Below are positions 1-61,057 of a DNA stretch of 64,000 nucleotides, piece by piece. The stretch comes from an uncultured Bacteroidales bacterium. Lineage in GTDB: Bacteria > Bacteroidota > Bacteroidia > Bacteroidales > P3. The notes under the pieces are model-generated. The model was given only the letters and a program-made list of their open reading frames with translations, did not search any database and was not told where the DNA came from. How positions within the stretch are numbered: the stretch's first letter is position 1; every line of letters starts with the position of its first letter. The DNA lies in assembly GCA_944321885.1 (NCBI GenBank), contig CALUNB010000002.1, positions 1 through 64,000 of the forward strand, in the 5' to 3' direction. The translations under genes were made by a program, and so were the position numbers.

Positions 1-152
1 GACTGTCGTCGAAGATAGCTTGGTCTCGACATAGCTCGAACTGCGTTCGGCTCTGTGCTCGACTTTCGCTATCTTTGACTGTCGTCGAAGATAGCTTGGT
101 CTCGACATAGCTCGAACTGCGTTCGGCTCTGTGCTCGACTTTCGCTATCTTT
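1..152 (+). repeat. C-cassette array: two identical 76-bp tandem units
   Basis: Positions 1-76 and 77-152 are identical. Each unit starts GACTGTCGTCGAAGATAGC and ends GCTATCTTT, so AAGATAGC and GCTATCTT form the outer arms of a hairpin. An inner imperfect stem is formed by CTCGAAC and GTTCGG. The G after each unit completes TATCTTTG. Related modules occur at 8.7, 29.7, 58.6 and 60.8 kb. The array may continue to the left of the window. Confidence 0.9.
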
Positions 153-153
153 G
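146..153 (+). promoter_or_regulatory. Promoter -7 box at the end of the cassette array
   Basis: TATCTTTG matches the Bacteroidetes TAnnTTTG box and lies 33 nt before the glycosyltransferase start. An identical box is at 70-77 in the first unit. The box is part of the repeat, so the repeat probably supplies the promoter for the 186-4860 gene run. Confidence 0.6.
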
Positions 154-185: not shown

Positions 186-1337
186 ATGGAAGTAAGACTC
201 ACATTTTCAACATGGGAGATAGGGCTTCTGCTGTTGCTCCTCCTCTGCTTCGCCCAAACGCTGAAGTTCTGCCTGGGCGTATACGCCCGGATTCCCAAGG
301 CGCCTAAGAACTTGCCCGGCCCGGACAAGAAACCGGTCTCGGTCGTCATTCCTGGCAAGAGCCATTCCGAAGCCCTCAAAAAGAACCTCGAATCCTGGCT
401 CCAACAGGAATATCCTTGCTTCGAAATCGTCGTAGTGTATGAGAAATCAGAGGAAGAGACCCACGAAATCCTGGATGACCTAGCCCGGAAATTTCCCCAG
501 CTCAAGCTCGTCCATGCCGACCTCGGGGCCAACTTCATCCACGAGGAGAAATTCGCCCTCTCCCTCGGGGTCCGCTCGGCCCGCTACGAACACGTCATCC
601 TGAGCTCGGCCCTGTTCCGGCCCGTCTCCAAGCAAAGCCTCGACTTCATGCAAGCCGCTTTCAAGCCCGGCATCCAAGCCGTGGCGGGACTCGTCCTCCC
701 CGCCCCGGGGAAAAAGACCTGCGGTTTCAAACAGTTCCTCCGGGTGGATAAGCGCCTCCAATACATGGGATTCGCCCTGTCCGGGCAAGCCTTCACCGCC
801 GAACGCCAATGGGTTGCCTACCGCAAAGATTTCTTCCTCGACCACCAAGGCTACACGCAAAGTTACGCCCTCGACACCGGAGATTTCGACCTCTTGGCCA
901 AACATGTCCCCGATCCGAAGGCCGTGAACGTGCAGCTGGCCCCGGAGGCAGGGGTCGTACCGGCCTTCCCCGCCCGCGAGTCTTTCCTGCAAACAGAAAA
1001 ACAGTTCCAGAACATTCTCTCCTTCCAAAGGACCCGGGCGGGTAAACAAATCCGGCTCAACACCCTTTCGGAAGCCCTCTACGGACTTTGCTTCGTAGGA
1101 GCCTGCACCCTGGCCGGTATCCAGTTTTTCCAAACGGAGCCTTCCGTCATTCCCCTTTGGTTCCTGGTTTTCTTCTTTTTCAGCCTCTGCAAGTCCTGTA
1201 TCCGGGCCGTTTGCATGCAGAAAGCCGGAAACGCTGTCAAAAGCGGATTCTTCTGGTTCGCCCTTCCTTTTTATGGGATTTTATACATACCTTTGCAACT
1301 TGCCCTCATGGCAAGGGAAAAGCATGGGTGGAAATGA
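186..1337 (+). CDS. Family 2 glycosyltransferase-like membrane protein, DxD motif lost
   Basis: This 383-residue protein resembles membrane-anchored GT2 enzymes. It has a hydrophobic anchor at about residues 11-32, a GT-A-like start (PVSVVIPGK at residue 50) and three hydrophobic segments in the last 100 residues. The segment that normally carries the metal-binding DxD reads HVILSSALFRP, so the acidic pair is absent. A downstream GDFDLL still resembles the family's second acidic motif. The gene heads a close-packed run of five genes, and its stop overlaps the sigma factor start as ATGA. Either it has lost catalysis or it uses another site. No substrate can be assigned. Confidence 0.75.
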   Translation: MEVRLTFSTWEIGLLLLLLLCFAQTLKFCLGVYARIPKAPKNLPGPDKKPVSVVIPGKSHSEALKKNLESWLQQEYPCFEIVVVYEKSEEETHEILDDLARKFPQLKLVHADLGANFIHEEKFALSLGVRSARYEHVILSSALFRPVSKQSLDFMQAAFKPGIQAVAGLVLPAPGKKTCGFKQFLRVDKRLQYMGFALSGQAFTAERQWVAYRKDFFLDHQGYTQSYALDTGDFDLLAKHVPDPKAVNVQLAPEAGVVPAFPARESFLQTEKQFQNILSFQRTRAGKQIRLNTLSEALYGLCFVGACTLAGIQFFQTEPSVIPLWFLVFFFFSLCKSCIRAVCMQKAGNAVKSGFFWFALPFYGILYIPLQLALMAREKHGWK

Positions 1338-7673: not shown

Positions 7674-8660
7674 TCAGCAAGAAGACTCGCCTATTTCCAA
7701 AAGCAAACCTTCGAAATCCGCCCGAGGACGTTGCAAGGCCCGGTACAATGCCAAAGCTTCCCGCGTGCATTGACGGGCTTTTTCCCGGGCATATTCCAAT
7801 CCGCCTGCTTCCTTTATGCGGCCGATCATCGAATCCAGCAAACCGGCATCCTCCTTCTGCTCCGCATGCAAGGCTGAAAGCCGGTCCAAATCCTCGAAAA
7901 AGGTGCTTTTGGCTTCCGCACCAGCCTTGTACAGGTAATACAAAGCCGGTAAGGTCAGTTTGCCCTCTTTCAAATCGTTCCCGTACCCCTTCCCGCTCCG
8001 GGCCTCCTTGTCCAAATCCAGCAAATCGTCCTTGATTTGGAATGCCAGACCGATTTGCCTGCCGATTTCCTTGGTCTTTTCCACTTCCTCGGACGAAGCC
8101 CCGGCCGCATAAGCCCCGCATTGGCAGCAGCATCCGAACAAAGCCGCCGTTTTGCCACCCACAATCCTGAAATAAGCATCCTCGTTGGCTTGGCGGTTGT
8201 TGGCGTACTGCAACTGCAAAAGCTCGCCCCCGCTCATCTGCCGGATTACCTCCACCAGCATGATCAAAAGCTGGATGTCACTCTCCCCGTAAGCACGCAA
8301 AAAAGCGTTGGTCAAAAGGTAATCCCCGGCCAAGACAGCTACTTTGTTCCCGAACATGGCCCGGATCGAGGCATTGCCCCGCCGCATGTCGGCCATATCC
8401 ACCACGTCGTCGTGTACCAAAGACGCCGCATGCACGACCTCCACCAGAGAAGCCGCCAAATAAGCCTGTTCCGACACTTCCTCCTTGTACAATTTATAGG
8501 CTTGGAACACCAGAACGGGACGTAACTGCTTTCCTTTGGACTGGAATATCTGTCCGCTGATATGGTTGATGAATTCGAAATCACCCGCTATCAGATCCTT
8601 GAATTTCTCATCAAACAAGGCCATCTCCCGAGCCAAAGACGTATGAAAATCGTAGGCCAT
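7674..8660 (-). CDS. Polyprenyl (trans-isoprenyl) diphosphate synthase
   Basis: This 328-residue enzyme extends allylic diphosphates with isopentenyl diphosphate to make the quinone side chain or a similar polyprenyl chain. The first aspartate-rich motif is DDVVDMADMRRG (about residue 82) and the second is QIKDDLLD (about 208). GKQLRP (about 43) binds diphosphate. An unusual cysteine-rich stretch, LFGCCCQCGAY, precedes the second motif. The start MAYDFHTS at 8660 fits the family. The upstream promoter box at 8697-8704 is part of a C-cassette, so this gene appears to be driven from repeat sequence. Confidence 0.93.
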   Translation of the reverse strand: MAYDFHTSLAREMALFDEKFKDLIAGDFEFINHISGQIFQSKGKQLRPVLVFQAYKLYKEEVSEQAYLAASLVEVVHAASLVHDDVVDMADMRRGNASIRAMFGNKVAVLAGDYLLTNAFLRAYGESDIQLLIMLVEVIRQMSGGELLQLQYANNRQANEDAYFRIVGGKTAALFGCCCQCGAYAAGASSEEVEKTKEIGRQIGLAFQIKDDLLDLDKEARSGKGYGNDLKEGKLTLPALYYLYKAGAEAKSTFFEDLDRLSALHAEQKEDAGLLDSMIGRIKEAGGLEYAREKARQCTREALALYRALQRPRADFEGLLLEIGESSC

Positions 8661-8696
8661 GATTATTTCGTATAACTGCCAACACCGGCAAAGGTA

Positions 8697-8704
8697 CAAA
8701 GATA
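8697..8704 (-). promoter_or_regulatory. Cassette-borne promoter -7 box for the polyprenyl synthase
   Basis: On the minus strand TATCTTTG lies 36 nt before the ATG at 8660. It is the terminal part of the hairpin cassette that fills the gap to sufE. A second copy is at 8782-8789. Confidence 0.65.
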
Positions 8705-8977
8705 GCGCAAGCCGAGCGCAAAGCCAAGCCTTCAGGCTTGAGCTTGGCCGAGGCGCAGCCTATCTTCGAGGACGAAGTCCTCAAAGATAGCGAAAGTCGA
8801 GAGCAGAAGCAAAGCCTACTTTGATTCTGCCGTTCGAGTCTCGAAAAACAGTGCAAACCGAGTGCAGAGCCAAAGCCCCGAGTAAGCCGAGCGCCATGCC
8901 AAGCCATTCCCTCGCTTGGGCATGGCCGAGACGGAGGGGCTTCGGCGTAGCCAGATTGCCCATTATCACGCACCGCC
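8697..8977 (-). repeat. Composite repeat: F2 left end followed by two C-cassettes
   Basis: Read on the minus strand, the F2 end GGCGGTGCGTGATAATGGG (8977-8959) is followed by the F2 body with its palindrome and CCCCTCCGTCTCGGCC. Two hairpin modules ending in TATCTTTG (8789-8782 and 8704-8697) come next. The linker between modules, GAGGACTTCGTCCTC, is a perfect hairpin. The composite covers nearly the whole sufE-to-polyprenyl-synthase gap. The F2 right end is missing. Confidence 0.85.
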
Positions 8978-17424: not shown

Positions 17425-17432
17425 TACTTTTG
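17425..17432 (+). promoter_or_regulatory. Promoter -7 box of the SRP RNA
   Basis: TACTTTTG ends 6 nt before the predicted RNA 5' end, the spacing expected for this box. Confidence 0.75.
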
Positions 17433-17437
17433 CGGCC

Positions 17438-17541
17438 GGGTAAGTCTTACACGACCAGCTCCCTTCTAATCCCCCAGGGCCGGAAGGCAGCAAGGGTACG
17501 AAGGTTGTAGCGGTGCGATGTAAGGAGCTTACCCTTTTTTT
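17438..17541 (+). ncRNA. ffs: Signal recognition particle RNA (4.5S type)
   Basis: The RNA scaffold of SRP, which binds Ffh and targets membrane proteins. The conserved domain IV reads CCAGGGCCGGAAGGCAGCAA (17470s-17490s), with its GGAA tetraloop and asymmetric bulge. The ends GGGTAAG and CTTACCC pair, and a run of eight T at 17535-17542 ends the transcript. Length of about 100 nt fits the small bacterial type. Confidence 0.96.
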
Positions 17542-22376: not shown

Positions 22377-22454
22377 GCGGTTTATCCTAACGGACCTTCT
22401 GGCTTTGCCGAAGACTGGCTGCACCTCGCATCTTATCCGTTCTGGCAAACCGCC
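22377..22454. repeat. F2 element, diverged short copy
   Basis: The ends GCGGTTTATCCTAACGGA and TCCGTTCTGGCAAACCGC are inverted repeats of the F2 type. The body contains CTGGCTTTGCCGAAGACTGG, shared with copies at 23.7 and 53.3 kb. It begins one base after a stop codon. Confidence 0.7.
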
Positions 22455-29285: not shown

Positions 29286-29877
29286 GAGCTGTTCAAGATT
29301 TTTTCCAGTCCTGGAATTCCCCTGTCGGAAACCTTTGTTTTTCCGTATCCATTCCAGCAAGGAACATGACATGAAGTAAAATCCTACCTTTTTCACTTCT
29401 GGTTTGCCAGAAACTGAACGGTGTGCCCGGGAAAAAGCCCTTACCGGAAACGTGGATTGCTCCCCCTTGTGTGAGGATTCCCTTCCGGAAGTCTTGGATT
29501 CCTTCCTTTCCTGGCGCACCGTTTTTTAACAGCTTTCCGCCGGTCTCCCCGCAAAATCAAAAAAACATCTTTACCTGAACAGGAACAAAAGTTCGACGGC
29601 GGTATTCATAACGGGTAATCTGTTCCGCCGAAGCCCCTCCGTCCCGGCCTTGCTCAAGCAAAGAACCGCTTGGCATGGCTCTCGGCTTTTGCTATCTTTG
29701 ACTGTTGTCGAAGATAGGATACGGTTCGGCAGATCCAAACTGGAAACTGCGTTTCCGTTTGTCTCTGCACTCACCTTTCCGTATCTTTGCCCTTGATTAT
29801 CGGCGGAGCCTTGCGGGGAACACGCTCAGGCTCCGTCAGTTCGACCAAACTTGAATCGTGAAATTTAAAACAGCTTC
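29286..29877 (+). repeat. Composite repeat region between the HU gene and rseC
   Basis: An R1-like end (GAGCTGTTCAAGATT) starts directly after the HU stop, and a partial R1-type end (TTTTTTAACAGCTTTCC) is near 29537. An F2 left end (GGCGGTATTCATAACGGG) starts at 29598, followed by CCGCCGAAGCCCCTCCGTC and two C-cassettes ending at TATCTTTG (29693-29700 and 29782-29789). An R1 right end (AAATTTAAAACAGCTTC) finishes at 29877. I see no gene in this gap. Confidence 0.72.
29782..29789 (+). promoter_or_regulatory. Cassette-borne promoter -7 box upstream of the RseC-like gene
   Basis: TATCTTTG at the end of the second cassette, 106 nt before the RseC-like start. An identical box is at 29693-29700. 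Confidence 0.55.
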
Positions 29878-29895: not shown

Positions 29896-30339
29896 ATGGC
29901 AGAGATAATCAAACATGAAGGTATCGTAACGAATGTCGAACCCGGCTCCGTCACGGTCAAAATCCAATCCACCTCGGCCTGCGGGTCTTGCCACGCCAAA
30001 GGCCTATGCCAAATGAGCGAAAAAACAGACAAAGATGTCGTTGTCAAGACCAAACACAGCCAAAGTTACCAAGTAGGAGAAACGGTCGATGTGTCCCTCA
30101 CCTCCGGTCTGGGCATGAAAGCCGTCCTCTATGCCTATGTGTTTTCCTTGGTGGCCGCCGGTATCGGCTTCTTCCTGGGCTCGCTGTTCACCGACAACCA
30201 AGGCATCTGGGGGCTTTGCGCCCTTGCCGGCTTGGCGCTTTATTTCGTTGTCTTGAAATTGGTTTCCCGGAAAATCAACAATAAATTCCATTTCGGCATC
30301 GCCCATAAGACGGAACTTCCGTTGGAAGCCCAAGAATAA
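29896..30339 (+). CDS. RseC/SoxR-reducing-system family membrane protein
   Basis: The protein (147 aa) has the RseC layout: an N-terminal domain with the cysteine cluster CGSCHAKGLC (about residues 29-38), then two membrane helices (about 75-95 and 100-120, AVLYAYVFSLVAAGIGFFLG and CALAGLALYFVVLK). In many Bacteroidetes this gene heads the rnf/rsx electron-transport operon. Here the next gene is fabG and no rnf subunit is present, so it is an orphan or the operon has been rearranged. Confidence 0.9.
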   Translation: MAEIIKHEGIVTNVEPGSVTVKIQSTSACGSCHAKGLCQMSEKTDKDVVVKTKHSQSYQVGETVDVSLTSGLGMKAVLYAYVFSLVAAGIGFFLGSLFTDNQGIWGLCALAGLALYFVVLKLVSRKINNKFHFGIAHKTELPLEAQE

Positions 30340-58490: not shown

Positions 58491-58771
58491 GAAGCTGTTT
58501 AAATTTATTTGTTTAGGCCATCGGGAGGGGATTTCGCGGGATGGCGCCGCGTTTTTCAAAGGAGGATAGCCCAGCTATCGGACGTGAAAAACGCAACGAT
58601 AGCGAAAGTCGAGCGGGGAATCAAAGCTTGCTTTGATTTCTCCGAGACCAAGCTATCTTCGAGCTTCGCTCAACCTAGACCCGGAATAGCCCCCGATGGG
58701 CAAACAAAATCCTGAATCCGGTCCCTGAAAATTCATTCTTTTCAGGATTGCAAGAAATTTTAAACAGCTTC
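58491..58771. repeat. R1 MITE-like element, full 281-bp copy carrying a C-cassette
   Basis: It starts GAAGCTGTTTAAA and ends TTTTAAACAGCTTC, flanked by TAA at 58488-58490 and 58772-58774. The left TAA is the subtilase stop codon. Inner inverted blocks (CCATCGGGAGGGG, CCCCCGATGGGC) flank a hairpin cassette GATAGCGAAAGTCGAG, AATCAAAGC/GCTTTGATT, GAGACCAAGCTATCTTCGAG. Compared with the 150-bp copy at 9.4 kb, the cassette is the extra middle part. Confidence 0.9.
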
Positions 58772-58801
58772 TAAGCTTTCATTGAAACCCCATGGGGAAA
58801 C

Positions 58802-59822: not shown

Positions 59823-60800
59823 TCAGCACATCCCTTCCGGCCATTCTTCCCCGAACGTTTCCCGGCAAAAGCATAGGTATTCCCCCTCTTCCGTAAAATG
59901 TTTAATCCGTTCAAAAGCACTTTCCGGCACAAAACGGCCTGCAAATTTACTCCAAAACAACTTCTGCCGCTGCAAAACCGTTGCTCCGGACAAGCCGGAA
60001 TCACGGTAGTTCCGGAACAAAGCCGCCAAGAAGCGGGCGAACAAACGCGTTTGCTCCTTTTCCGTGAAATGGAAACCACTCAAATAACATGGCAAAAAAG
60101 GATTGGCAATGACGGCCCGCCCTAACATGACACGCCGGACGGAAGGAAAGCGGCGGGCAAATACCAAAGCTGTTTCCACACTGTCGATGTCCCCGCTGTA
60201 AACGCAAGGATGACGCATAACCGGTAAAATCCTTTCAAACTTGTCCCAATCGGCCTTTCCTCCGTAAAGCTGGAGGCCAATCCGGGGATGGACCGCCACA
60301 TAAGCAAGAGGAAAAGCGTTCAAGACATCCATGACAGGATAAATCTCGGAATCCGAAGCATAGCCCAAGCGCAACTTGACCGAAAGCGCCACCGGGGAAG
60401 AAGGCAACACCTTTTCCAAAAAGCTCGCAATCCGGTCCGGATGCGGTAACAACCCACTCCCCCTCTGCTTCCGGGCCACATTCCGCACCGGGCAGCCCAA
60501 GTTCCAATCAAGCGTGGAATACCCCATCGAATGCAAGGCCTCGGCCATCGGCAAAAAATAACCGGCTTCGTTTCCCAAGAACTGGGGTTCCACCTCCATG
60601 CGATTGTTTTCCGGGAACAAATCCTTCAAAAGCGAAAGCCGGACCCGGGCTCCCGGCACCAAGCTCACGAAAGGACTGACTGCCTTCCTCATCCGGGAAT
60701 AAGCCCCGAAAACTTCCATCCAGGCATTCCGGTACGGGTAATCCGTCACCCCGTCCATGGGTGCCAATATCCATTCGACCGACTCCAATTCCTCTATCAT
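59823..60800 (-). CDS. tRNA-dihydrouridine synthase
   Basis: This flavoenzyme (325 aa) reduces uridine in tRNA. The N terminus ILAPMDGVTDYPYRN is the FMN-binding family start, the catalytic Cys is in WNLGCPVRNVARKQRGSG (about 92), and the phosphate-binding HPRIGLQLYGGKADW (about 177) and RRVMLGRAVIANPFL (about 228) follow. Which position it modifies is not known. The ATG at 60800 follows a cassette-borne TATATTTG by only 4 nt, so translation may be nearly leaderless. Confidence 0.93.
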   Translation of the reverse strand: MIEELESVEWILAPMDGVTDYPYRNAWMEVFGAYSRMRKAVSPFVSLVPGARVRLSLLKDLFPENNRMEVEPQFLGNEAGYFLPMAEALHSMGYSTLDWNLGCPVRNVARKQRGSGLLPHPDRIASFLEKVLPSSPVALSVKLRLGYASDSEIYPVMDVLNAFPLAYVAVHPRIGLQLYGGKADWDKFERILPVMRHPCVYSGDIDSVETALVFARRFPSVRRVMLGRAVIANPFLPCYLSGFHFTEKEQTRLFARFLAALFRNYRDSGLSGATVLQRQKLFWSKFAGRFVPESAFERIKHFTEEGEYLCFCRETFGEEWPEGMC

Positions 60801-60804
60801 ATTG

Positions 60805-60812
60805 CAAATATA
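60805..60812 (-). promoter_or_regulatory. Cassette-borne promoter -7 box of the Dus gene
   Basis: On the minus strand TATATTTG ends 4 nt before the ATG and is the terminal part of a tandem hairpin array. Confidence 0.62.
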
Positions 60813-60995
60813 GCGAAAGTCGAGCGCCAAGCCGAACGAAGTTCGAGCTCGGCCGAGACCAAGCTATATCGGTCCGCCAGGACCAATATAGCGAAAGTCG
60901 AGCGCCAAGCCGAACGAAGTTCGAGCTCGGCCAAGACCAAGCTATATCGGTCCGCCAGGACCAATATAGTGAAAGTCGAGCGCCAAGCAATCCAA
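60805..60995 (-). repeat. C-cassette array: 78-bp tandem units (about 2.4 copies)
   Basis: Units restart at 60813, 60891 and 60969 (GCGAAAGTCGAGCGCCAAGC or with one change), spaced exactly 78 bp. On the minus strand each contains TATAGCTTGGTCT, CTCGAAC/GTTCGG and ends CGACTTTCGCTATAT. The linker GGTCCTGGCGGACC is a perfect hairpin. The third unit is cut off and joins CAATCCAAGCCTGCTTGAGC. Sequence and size are related to the 76-bp array at 1-152. Confidence 0.9.
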
Positions 60996-61057
60996 GCCTG
61001 CTTGAGCTTGCATTGCCGAACCGCATGGACAATTGCCAAACATTTTCCTCCTCTTCT

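Follow-up and report, generated by a model that had tools for sequence, protein, structure and literature searches.

Hairpin units ending in a promoter box lie directly 3' of native -7 boxes in Bacteroidales genomes

Results

The window analysed here (labelled G000:C2) is the initial 64 kb of a contig that is 90 kb long and belongs to a 2.47-Mb draft genome. Units of a hairpin family were called in it with a covariance model (CM) that was built from 43 diverse units. The first array precedes a glycosyltransferase family 2 gene (186..1337, plus strand; Glycos_transf_2, Pfam PF00535, 4.5e-06) and consists of two perfect 76-bp copies in tandem (1-152), in which the model places one unit at 12..77 (plus strand, CM E 1.9e-14), with the edge box TATCTTTG at its 3' end (70-77), and a second at 88..153 (plus strand), whose gene-proximal box TATCTTTG occupies 146-153, with the start codon at 186, 32 nt further on. 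The inter-unit loop between them, ACTGTCGTCG, spans 78..87 (plus strand). Note that because the window begins at a contig end, the left flank of this array is missing. The second array, on the minus strand, lies upstream of a polyprenyl synthase gene (7674..8660, minus strand; PF00348, 7.1e-64). Its units are found at 8697..8766 (box TATCTTTG at 8697-8704, CM E 1.3e-14), with a second box, TACCTTTG, directly adjoining at 8689-8696, at 8782..8842 (box TATCTTTG at 8782-8789, CM E 4.9e-4) and, in degenerate form with the edge GGGCTTTG, at 8871..8942 (CM E 1.2e-6).

The third array, on the plus strand, comprises an upstream unit at 29631..29700 (box TATCTTTG at 29693-29700, CM E 9.9e-7) and a unit of a GGTTCGG/CACC subtype at 29711..29789 (box TATCTTTG at 29782-29789, CM E 3.8e-11); the gene downstream encodes an RseC/MucC-like protein (29896..30339, plus strand; RseC_MucC, PF04246, 1.8e-27). 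The fourth, on the minus strand, precedes a dihydrouridine synthase (Dus) gene (59823..60800, minus strand; PF01207, 8.3e-24) and has a pitch of 78 bp, with 78-bp copies at 60807-60962. Its gene-proximal unit (60805..60870, CM E 9.4e-13) ends in the box TATATTTG at 60805-60812, with the Dus start codon 4 nt on; behind it lie a unit at 60883..60948 with the decayed box TATATTGG (CM E 1.2e-10) and an outermost, degenerate unit at 60961..61034 that also carries TATATTGG (CM E 2.1e-3). A further unit (58594..58659, minus strand, CM E 3.2e-12) sits inside the repeat R1. Thus, the hairpin modules that the first-pass annotation had placed at five positions are all present, and four of them have, at the level of sequence, the terminal promoter box that it had described, facing a gene that begins a short distance downstream, with the gene identities confirmed by Pfam. 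The module inside R1 also exists, but its edge has decayed to TATCGTTG and carries no box. The flanks thought to be common to all modules are not: CGACTTTCGCTAT, at positions 60 and 136 (plus strand) and at 8799, 58611, 60822 and 60900 (minus strand), is a subtype feature and is absent from the GGTTCGG/CACC-subtype module at 29.7 kb.

R1 is a repeat of ~280 bp (window ~58491-58772) with the ends GAAGCTGTTTAAA..TTTAAACAGCTTC. Inside it is a single unit whose edge has decayed (to TATCGTTTG or a similar sequence) and whose orientation to genes is random. R1 accounts for ~20 arrays genome-wide and is a second route of unit spread. (The window also holds another dispersed repeat, GCGGTTTATCCTAACGGACCTTCTGGCTTTGCCGAAGACTGGCTGCACCTCG, at 22377, 23666, 27709, 53171 and 53253, several copies of which lie shortly past gene ends, and a Bacteroidales small SRP RNA at 17431-17538, Rfam RF04183.)

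Each unit is an imperfect hairpin of 65-80 bases. Read 5' to 3', it consists of a loop of ~3-16 nt that usually ends in CG, a left arm, a covarying stem, a right arm and a terminal TAnnTTTG. The left arm is AAGATAG or AATATAG followed by GATGCGTCTCGGC or CTTGGTCTCGGC and then by the apical part of the stem, which is freely variable; the right arm is CTCGACTTTCGC, CTCACCTTTCGC or similar and runs into TATCTTTG or TATATTTG. In the stem, 96% of cells are paired, and double-sided changes occur in 12 of 14 pairs. This pairing was matched by none of 500 shuffles, and slid controls gave far lower values. Changes at the variable base of the edge box (TATC/TATA) are matched by changes in the left arm. 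The loops between units are variable, mostly 9-15 nt long in this genome, and nearly all end in CG; in our reading, the TTTG of a box can thereby pair with CGAA of the next left arm.

Two variations on this plan were observed. In nested hairpins (L080:150-305, L117, L132, L160, L173 and L290), a unit with the outer stem GCCCC/GGGGC and the end CTTTG lies within another unit near TTGG, as if TTTG or TTGG inside a unit could also act as a target. Related units with other outer stems (CAGTCTTTG, CTGCCTTTG and GTTTATTTG) occur at L037:2354-2419, L169:1265-1329 and L050:1533-1593, and the hairpin family is thus wider than the subtype that carries a promoter box.

When the first module was used as a blastn query, 61 matches were obtained in the genome, the best non-self match at 1.8e-63. 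Among the best 150 candidates scored, the covariance model recovered at least 144 units at E<=0.01, in 98 arrays, none of which overlaps any called gene. Arrays break short-read assemblies (contigs C2, C9, C10, C21, C43, C46, C49, C55, C60, C78 and C83 of this genome end inside or at arrays), so these unit counts are lower bounds. The family was found in all 12 sampled congeners, with 5 to at least 80 matches each (G003, G004 and G009, for example, are low-copy). A sample of 393 Bacteroidales species yielded relatives in 46, representing 27 of 207 genera (E<=1e-6). Across the phylum, 3 of 396 genomes carry the family; all three belong to the Bacteroidales, and no other order in that sample yielded it. 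A pattern scan of named genomes returned Candidatus Pullibacteroides, Candidatus Aphodosoma, Muribaculaceae, Barnesiella, Dysgonomonas, Paludibacter, Alistipes and others, and its few matches outside the Bacteroidales are single and have no hairpin. Dysgonomonas sp. Marseille-P4361 and Paludibacter sp. 221 are among the genomes in which the edge sequence was matched. There were no matches in plasmid and phage records and none, by exact pattern, in IMG/VR, so that known plasmids and phages give no indication of having spread the family. The first-pass annotation knew of no described family with these properties, and we likewise found no published description of the hairpin family in the open-access literature, which is weak evidence given that scope. 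The hairpin family is real and widespread in one order, and its insertion point, described below, is unusual and well documented.

The orientation of arrays to genes depends on the edge. For arrays with an intact TAnnTTTG at the 3' edge, the next gene runs in the same direction in 46 of 47 cases (binomial p 7e-13), whereas for arrays with a broken edge the ratio of same to opposite is 20:19. The sole opposite array and one of the 46 are copies inside R1; without them the ratio is 45:0. Independent loci from other Bacteroidales gave 79:1, and a genome assembled in one contig (G325) gave 24:2. (Gene calls behind these counts came from a simple hexamer caller, and single cases may be wrong.) The arrays are thus strongly related to gene starts, one of the points on which the first-pass annotation had staked its reading.

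The edge motif is that of a known promoter: in Bacteroides, the sigma-ABfr promoter has TAnnTTTG at -7 and TTTG near -33 (PMC7366714). Among 72 units with clearly different stems, 49 have a TTG 18-22 nt upstream of the box, where 7 are expected by shuffling. Nearly all of these TTGs sit 19 or 20 nt upstream of the edge box and, since the TTG is paired in the stem, a structural cause of this spacing is possible. (The PM2 motif described for B. thetaiotaomicron was rejected as a match, because it has elements at -10 and -30; PMC7366714.) At the Dus gene, the distance from box to ATG is exactly 4 nt in five species, two with a unit and three with a native box; a start codon only 4 nt past the -7 box suggests that the Dus transcript is leaderless. 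These features strongly imply, as judged from sequence, that the edge box is transcriptionally active as a promoter. In six of six arrays with mixed boxes, the decayed box lies upstream and the gene-proximal box is intact, the reverse arrangement being absent (sign test p = 0.03), which suggests that mainly the last, gene-proximal box would matter for expression. The proposal that unit number tunes expression is, on the same observation, not supported so far.

We compared ten array-carrying genes with their orthologues in congeners, using one genome per species. For AtoD-like, DUF2723, OmpA-like, MFS and porin-like genes, the promoter of relatives is uninterrupted and has TAnnTTTG at the point of the array's beginning; past the last box of the array, the sequence resumes with what lies behind the native box in relatives. 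At the AtoD-like gene, for example, the site here reads CCCTCTTTTCCA-TATATTTG, a unit ending in TATATTTG, and CAGTTTG, whereas two congeners (G002 and G011) read CCCTCTTTTTCA-TATATTTG-CAGCTTG. At the DUF2723-like gene, the site here reads AAAAGGACTTTTCGC-TATCGTTG, a unit ending in TATCTTTG, and CAAGTTTTCGG, and G001 and G011 read AAAAGGACTTTTTG-TACATTTG-CAAGTTTGATG; the native box at this site has decayed to TATCGTTG. Decay of displaced boxes, here and in the mixed arrays, is what loss of selection predicts. At the OmpA-like and MFS genes, the left box (TATATTTG or TAAATTTG) is kept in several relatives that have no units there, and the porin-like gene has TATCTTTG-CAAGATTG-CTTTTACCGCATGAAAAACAG in G001, which carries an array, as compared with TACATTTG-TCGGACTGT-CTTTTACCGCATGAAAAACAG in G002, which is empty. 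The insertion point is therefore directly 3' of the TTTG of a native -7 box that is conserved across species. Because several relatives are empty at the AtoD, OmpA, DUF2723 and MFS sites, gain in this lineage is the simpler reading.

Extending this to arrays with an intact edge, an exact TAnnTTTG abuts the first loop in 18 of 45 arrays in this genome, whereas a control window placed further upstream has one in none of the 45; 1.1% of random 22-nt windows contain the motif. The remaining arrays of the 45, which have no exact left box, need decay or some other history.

Neighbouring units are identical in some arrays (the first array of the window, C49 and C16) and of different subtypes in others (C21, C93, C63 and C20), so that duplication and repeated insertion both seem to occur; some identical tandem copies may be simple duplications. 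Moreover, two loci in two close species (L139 and L164) have common downstream sequence and different unit subtypes at one site, where units appear to have been exchanged.

Discussion

From these comparisons, we think it probable that the modules are copies of a nonautonomous, protein-less mobile hairpin, which has -7 boxes as its target and substitutes a promoter of its own for the one that it splits. The element would insert directly 3' of TTTG in an existing sigma-ABfr -7 box (TAnnTTTG), and the native box would stay on the element's left, cut off from its gene, while the terminal box of the element, with the stem TTG 19-20 nt upstream, would land at the position of the native box and take over as promoter. 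Insertion would leave a new TAnnTTTG facing the gene, so the site would be reusable and units could stack in tandem. We infer that a unit moves as a folded single strand, in which the left arm would pair with the target box as well as with the terminal box.

A hairpin that inserts 3' of a short motif with no target duplication also follows the logic of IS200/IS605 and REP elements, and the units might then be REP-like elements that depend for their movement on a Y1 (HUH) REP transposase, for instance one of the Bacteroidetes subclass 2.6 with atypical flanking hairpins. For that subclass, Quentin et al. 2018 (PMC6006769) describe atypical flanking structures with genomic copies. According to PMC6006769 and PMC3733652, a guide beside the hairpin foot of IS200/IS605 elements pairs with the target and the end, and REP/REPIN sequences with their RAYT are, like the units, high-copy extragenic hairpins. 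Most unit carriers, however, have no RAYT: Y1_Tnp is absent from 13 of 13 genomes of the genus itself and from 14 of 19 other carriers, including the one-contig G325, and 41 Y1 loci, taken with flanks of ~1.5 kb, contained no unit. REP elements bear an unpaired GT[AG]G or CGTC tag, whereas the units have no GT[AG]G foot, their ends are AAGATAG..CTATCTTTG, and GTC/CGTC inside the stem is paired. Unlike both IS200/IS605 and REP elements, a unit repeats the target motif, a promoter box, at its own 3' end. The resemblance of the units to these elements is functional only, and movement by a Y1 REP transposase, already weakened, is unlikely.

Further searches likewise turned up neither a mobilising enzyme nor an autonomous copy. 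No Y2 transposases were found in the genus, and paired half-element profiles run over ~1.4 Mb of loci returned no repeated version of an autonomous, gene-carrying copy. (A 1.2-kb candidate, L095, was rejected, as it encloses what appears, from a translation read by eye, to be a glycosyltransferase-like protein and not a transposase; several half-element pairs of 116-129 nt were also set aside, as they look like nested hairpins and not like gene-carrying copies.)

Folded sites, variable apical stems, tandem stacking and a common core on both sides would also be expected of integron-like or other site-specific recombination, in which a tyrosine recombinase, or an enzyme like it, would recombine the hairpins as attC-like sites into a TTTG core. 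All carriers have tyrosine recombinases, but generic members also matched in 14 of 14 control genomes. Integron attC sites need an integron integrase in their carriers, and 0 of 18 unit carriers had one over the TIGR02249 cut-off; moreover, there are no cassette genes between units. We regard recombination of this kind as rather improbable.

The presence of a box on both sides of the element could instead reflect an ordinary MITE: a DDE transposase would have duplicated 8 bp of target on insertion, and the box on the right would be the copy. Such MITEs have a direct target-site duplication, which the units lack: at several sites the nn positions are not the same in the left box as in the right (TACC/TATC, TATT/TATA, TACA/TATC), and it is with the left arm of the element itself that the right box pairs, so the right box is part of the element. 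This makes a DDE origin very unlikely. Covariation of the stem would also suit a role in RNA, with the hairpins serving as transcript leader, terminator or processing structures. We give this slightly less credence still, since an edge box that acts as the promoter would leave the gene-proximal hairpin outside the transcript, on its upstream side, no Rfam family matches the units (tRNA and the small SRP RNA being the only matches in the window at gathering threshold) and no U tract follows the stem. Finally, tandem duplication of native promoters with no mobile element, to which the perfect or near-perfect copies in several arrays might point, is refuted for the family as a whole by empty sites and by a common sequence that recurs at ~100 loci with no relation to one another and in 46 Bacteroidales of the 393. 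Arrays of different subtypes argue for repeated insertion and not for duplication alone; duplication remains a local way to add copies.

As probable mobile hairpins, the units fall under the broad concept of a mobile promoter, in that a promoter-like sequence recurs in front of unrelated genes and there is evidence that it has spread. To our knowledge, the Correia elements of Neisseria, which differ from the units in length and architecture, show neither targeting and regeneration of an existing promoter box nor tandem stacking of boxes. As described in PMC10969869, Correia elements resemble the units in being small, intergenic and present in more than 100 copies, and in having promoters that point outwards beside genes. 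A close idea is that of putative mobile promoters (Matus-Garcia et al. 2012; van Passel et al. 2014; both as cited in PMC8049555); going by that description, the units are set apart by the insertion point 3' of the -7 box, the covarying hairpin, stacking and the apparent take-over of native promoters. BrickBuilt, a MITE of Porphyromonas gingivalis, is likewise from the Bacteroidales, always intergenic, built with tandem repeats and proposed as a mobile promoter, with promoter activity in reporter assays; it differs in having terminal inverted repeats around 23-nt repeats, bidirectional promoters and ~19 copies, and is reported from P. gingivalis only (PMC4596501).

More tentatively, the units could represent a new class of mobile DNA that has the core promoter as its attachment site, in which a not yet recognised enzyme moves a single-stranded hairpin, the left arm of which pairs with the -7 box of the host and also with the hairpin's own 3' end, and in which host promoters are replaced one by one while their genes stay expressed, until a noticeable share of promoters is element-derived. 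The mobilising enzyme is a concrete target for discovery. The units would illustrate how a selfish element can spare its host, by targeting a promoter and handing back an equivalent one. At least 45 genes in this genome are predicted to be driven from element-borne boxes, and part of the promoter repertoire would thus be derived from a mobile element. Each insertion would leave a usable site, which would account for tandem arrays and provide a source of natural promoter variation in gut Bacteroidales.
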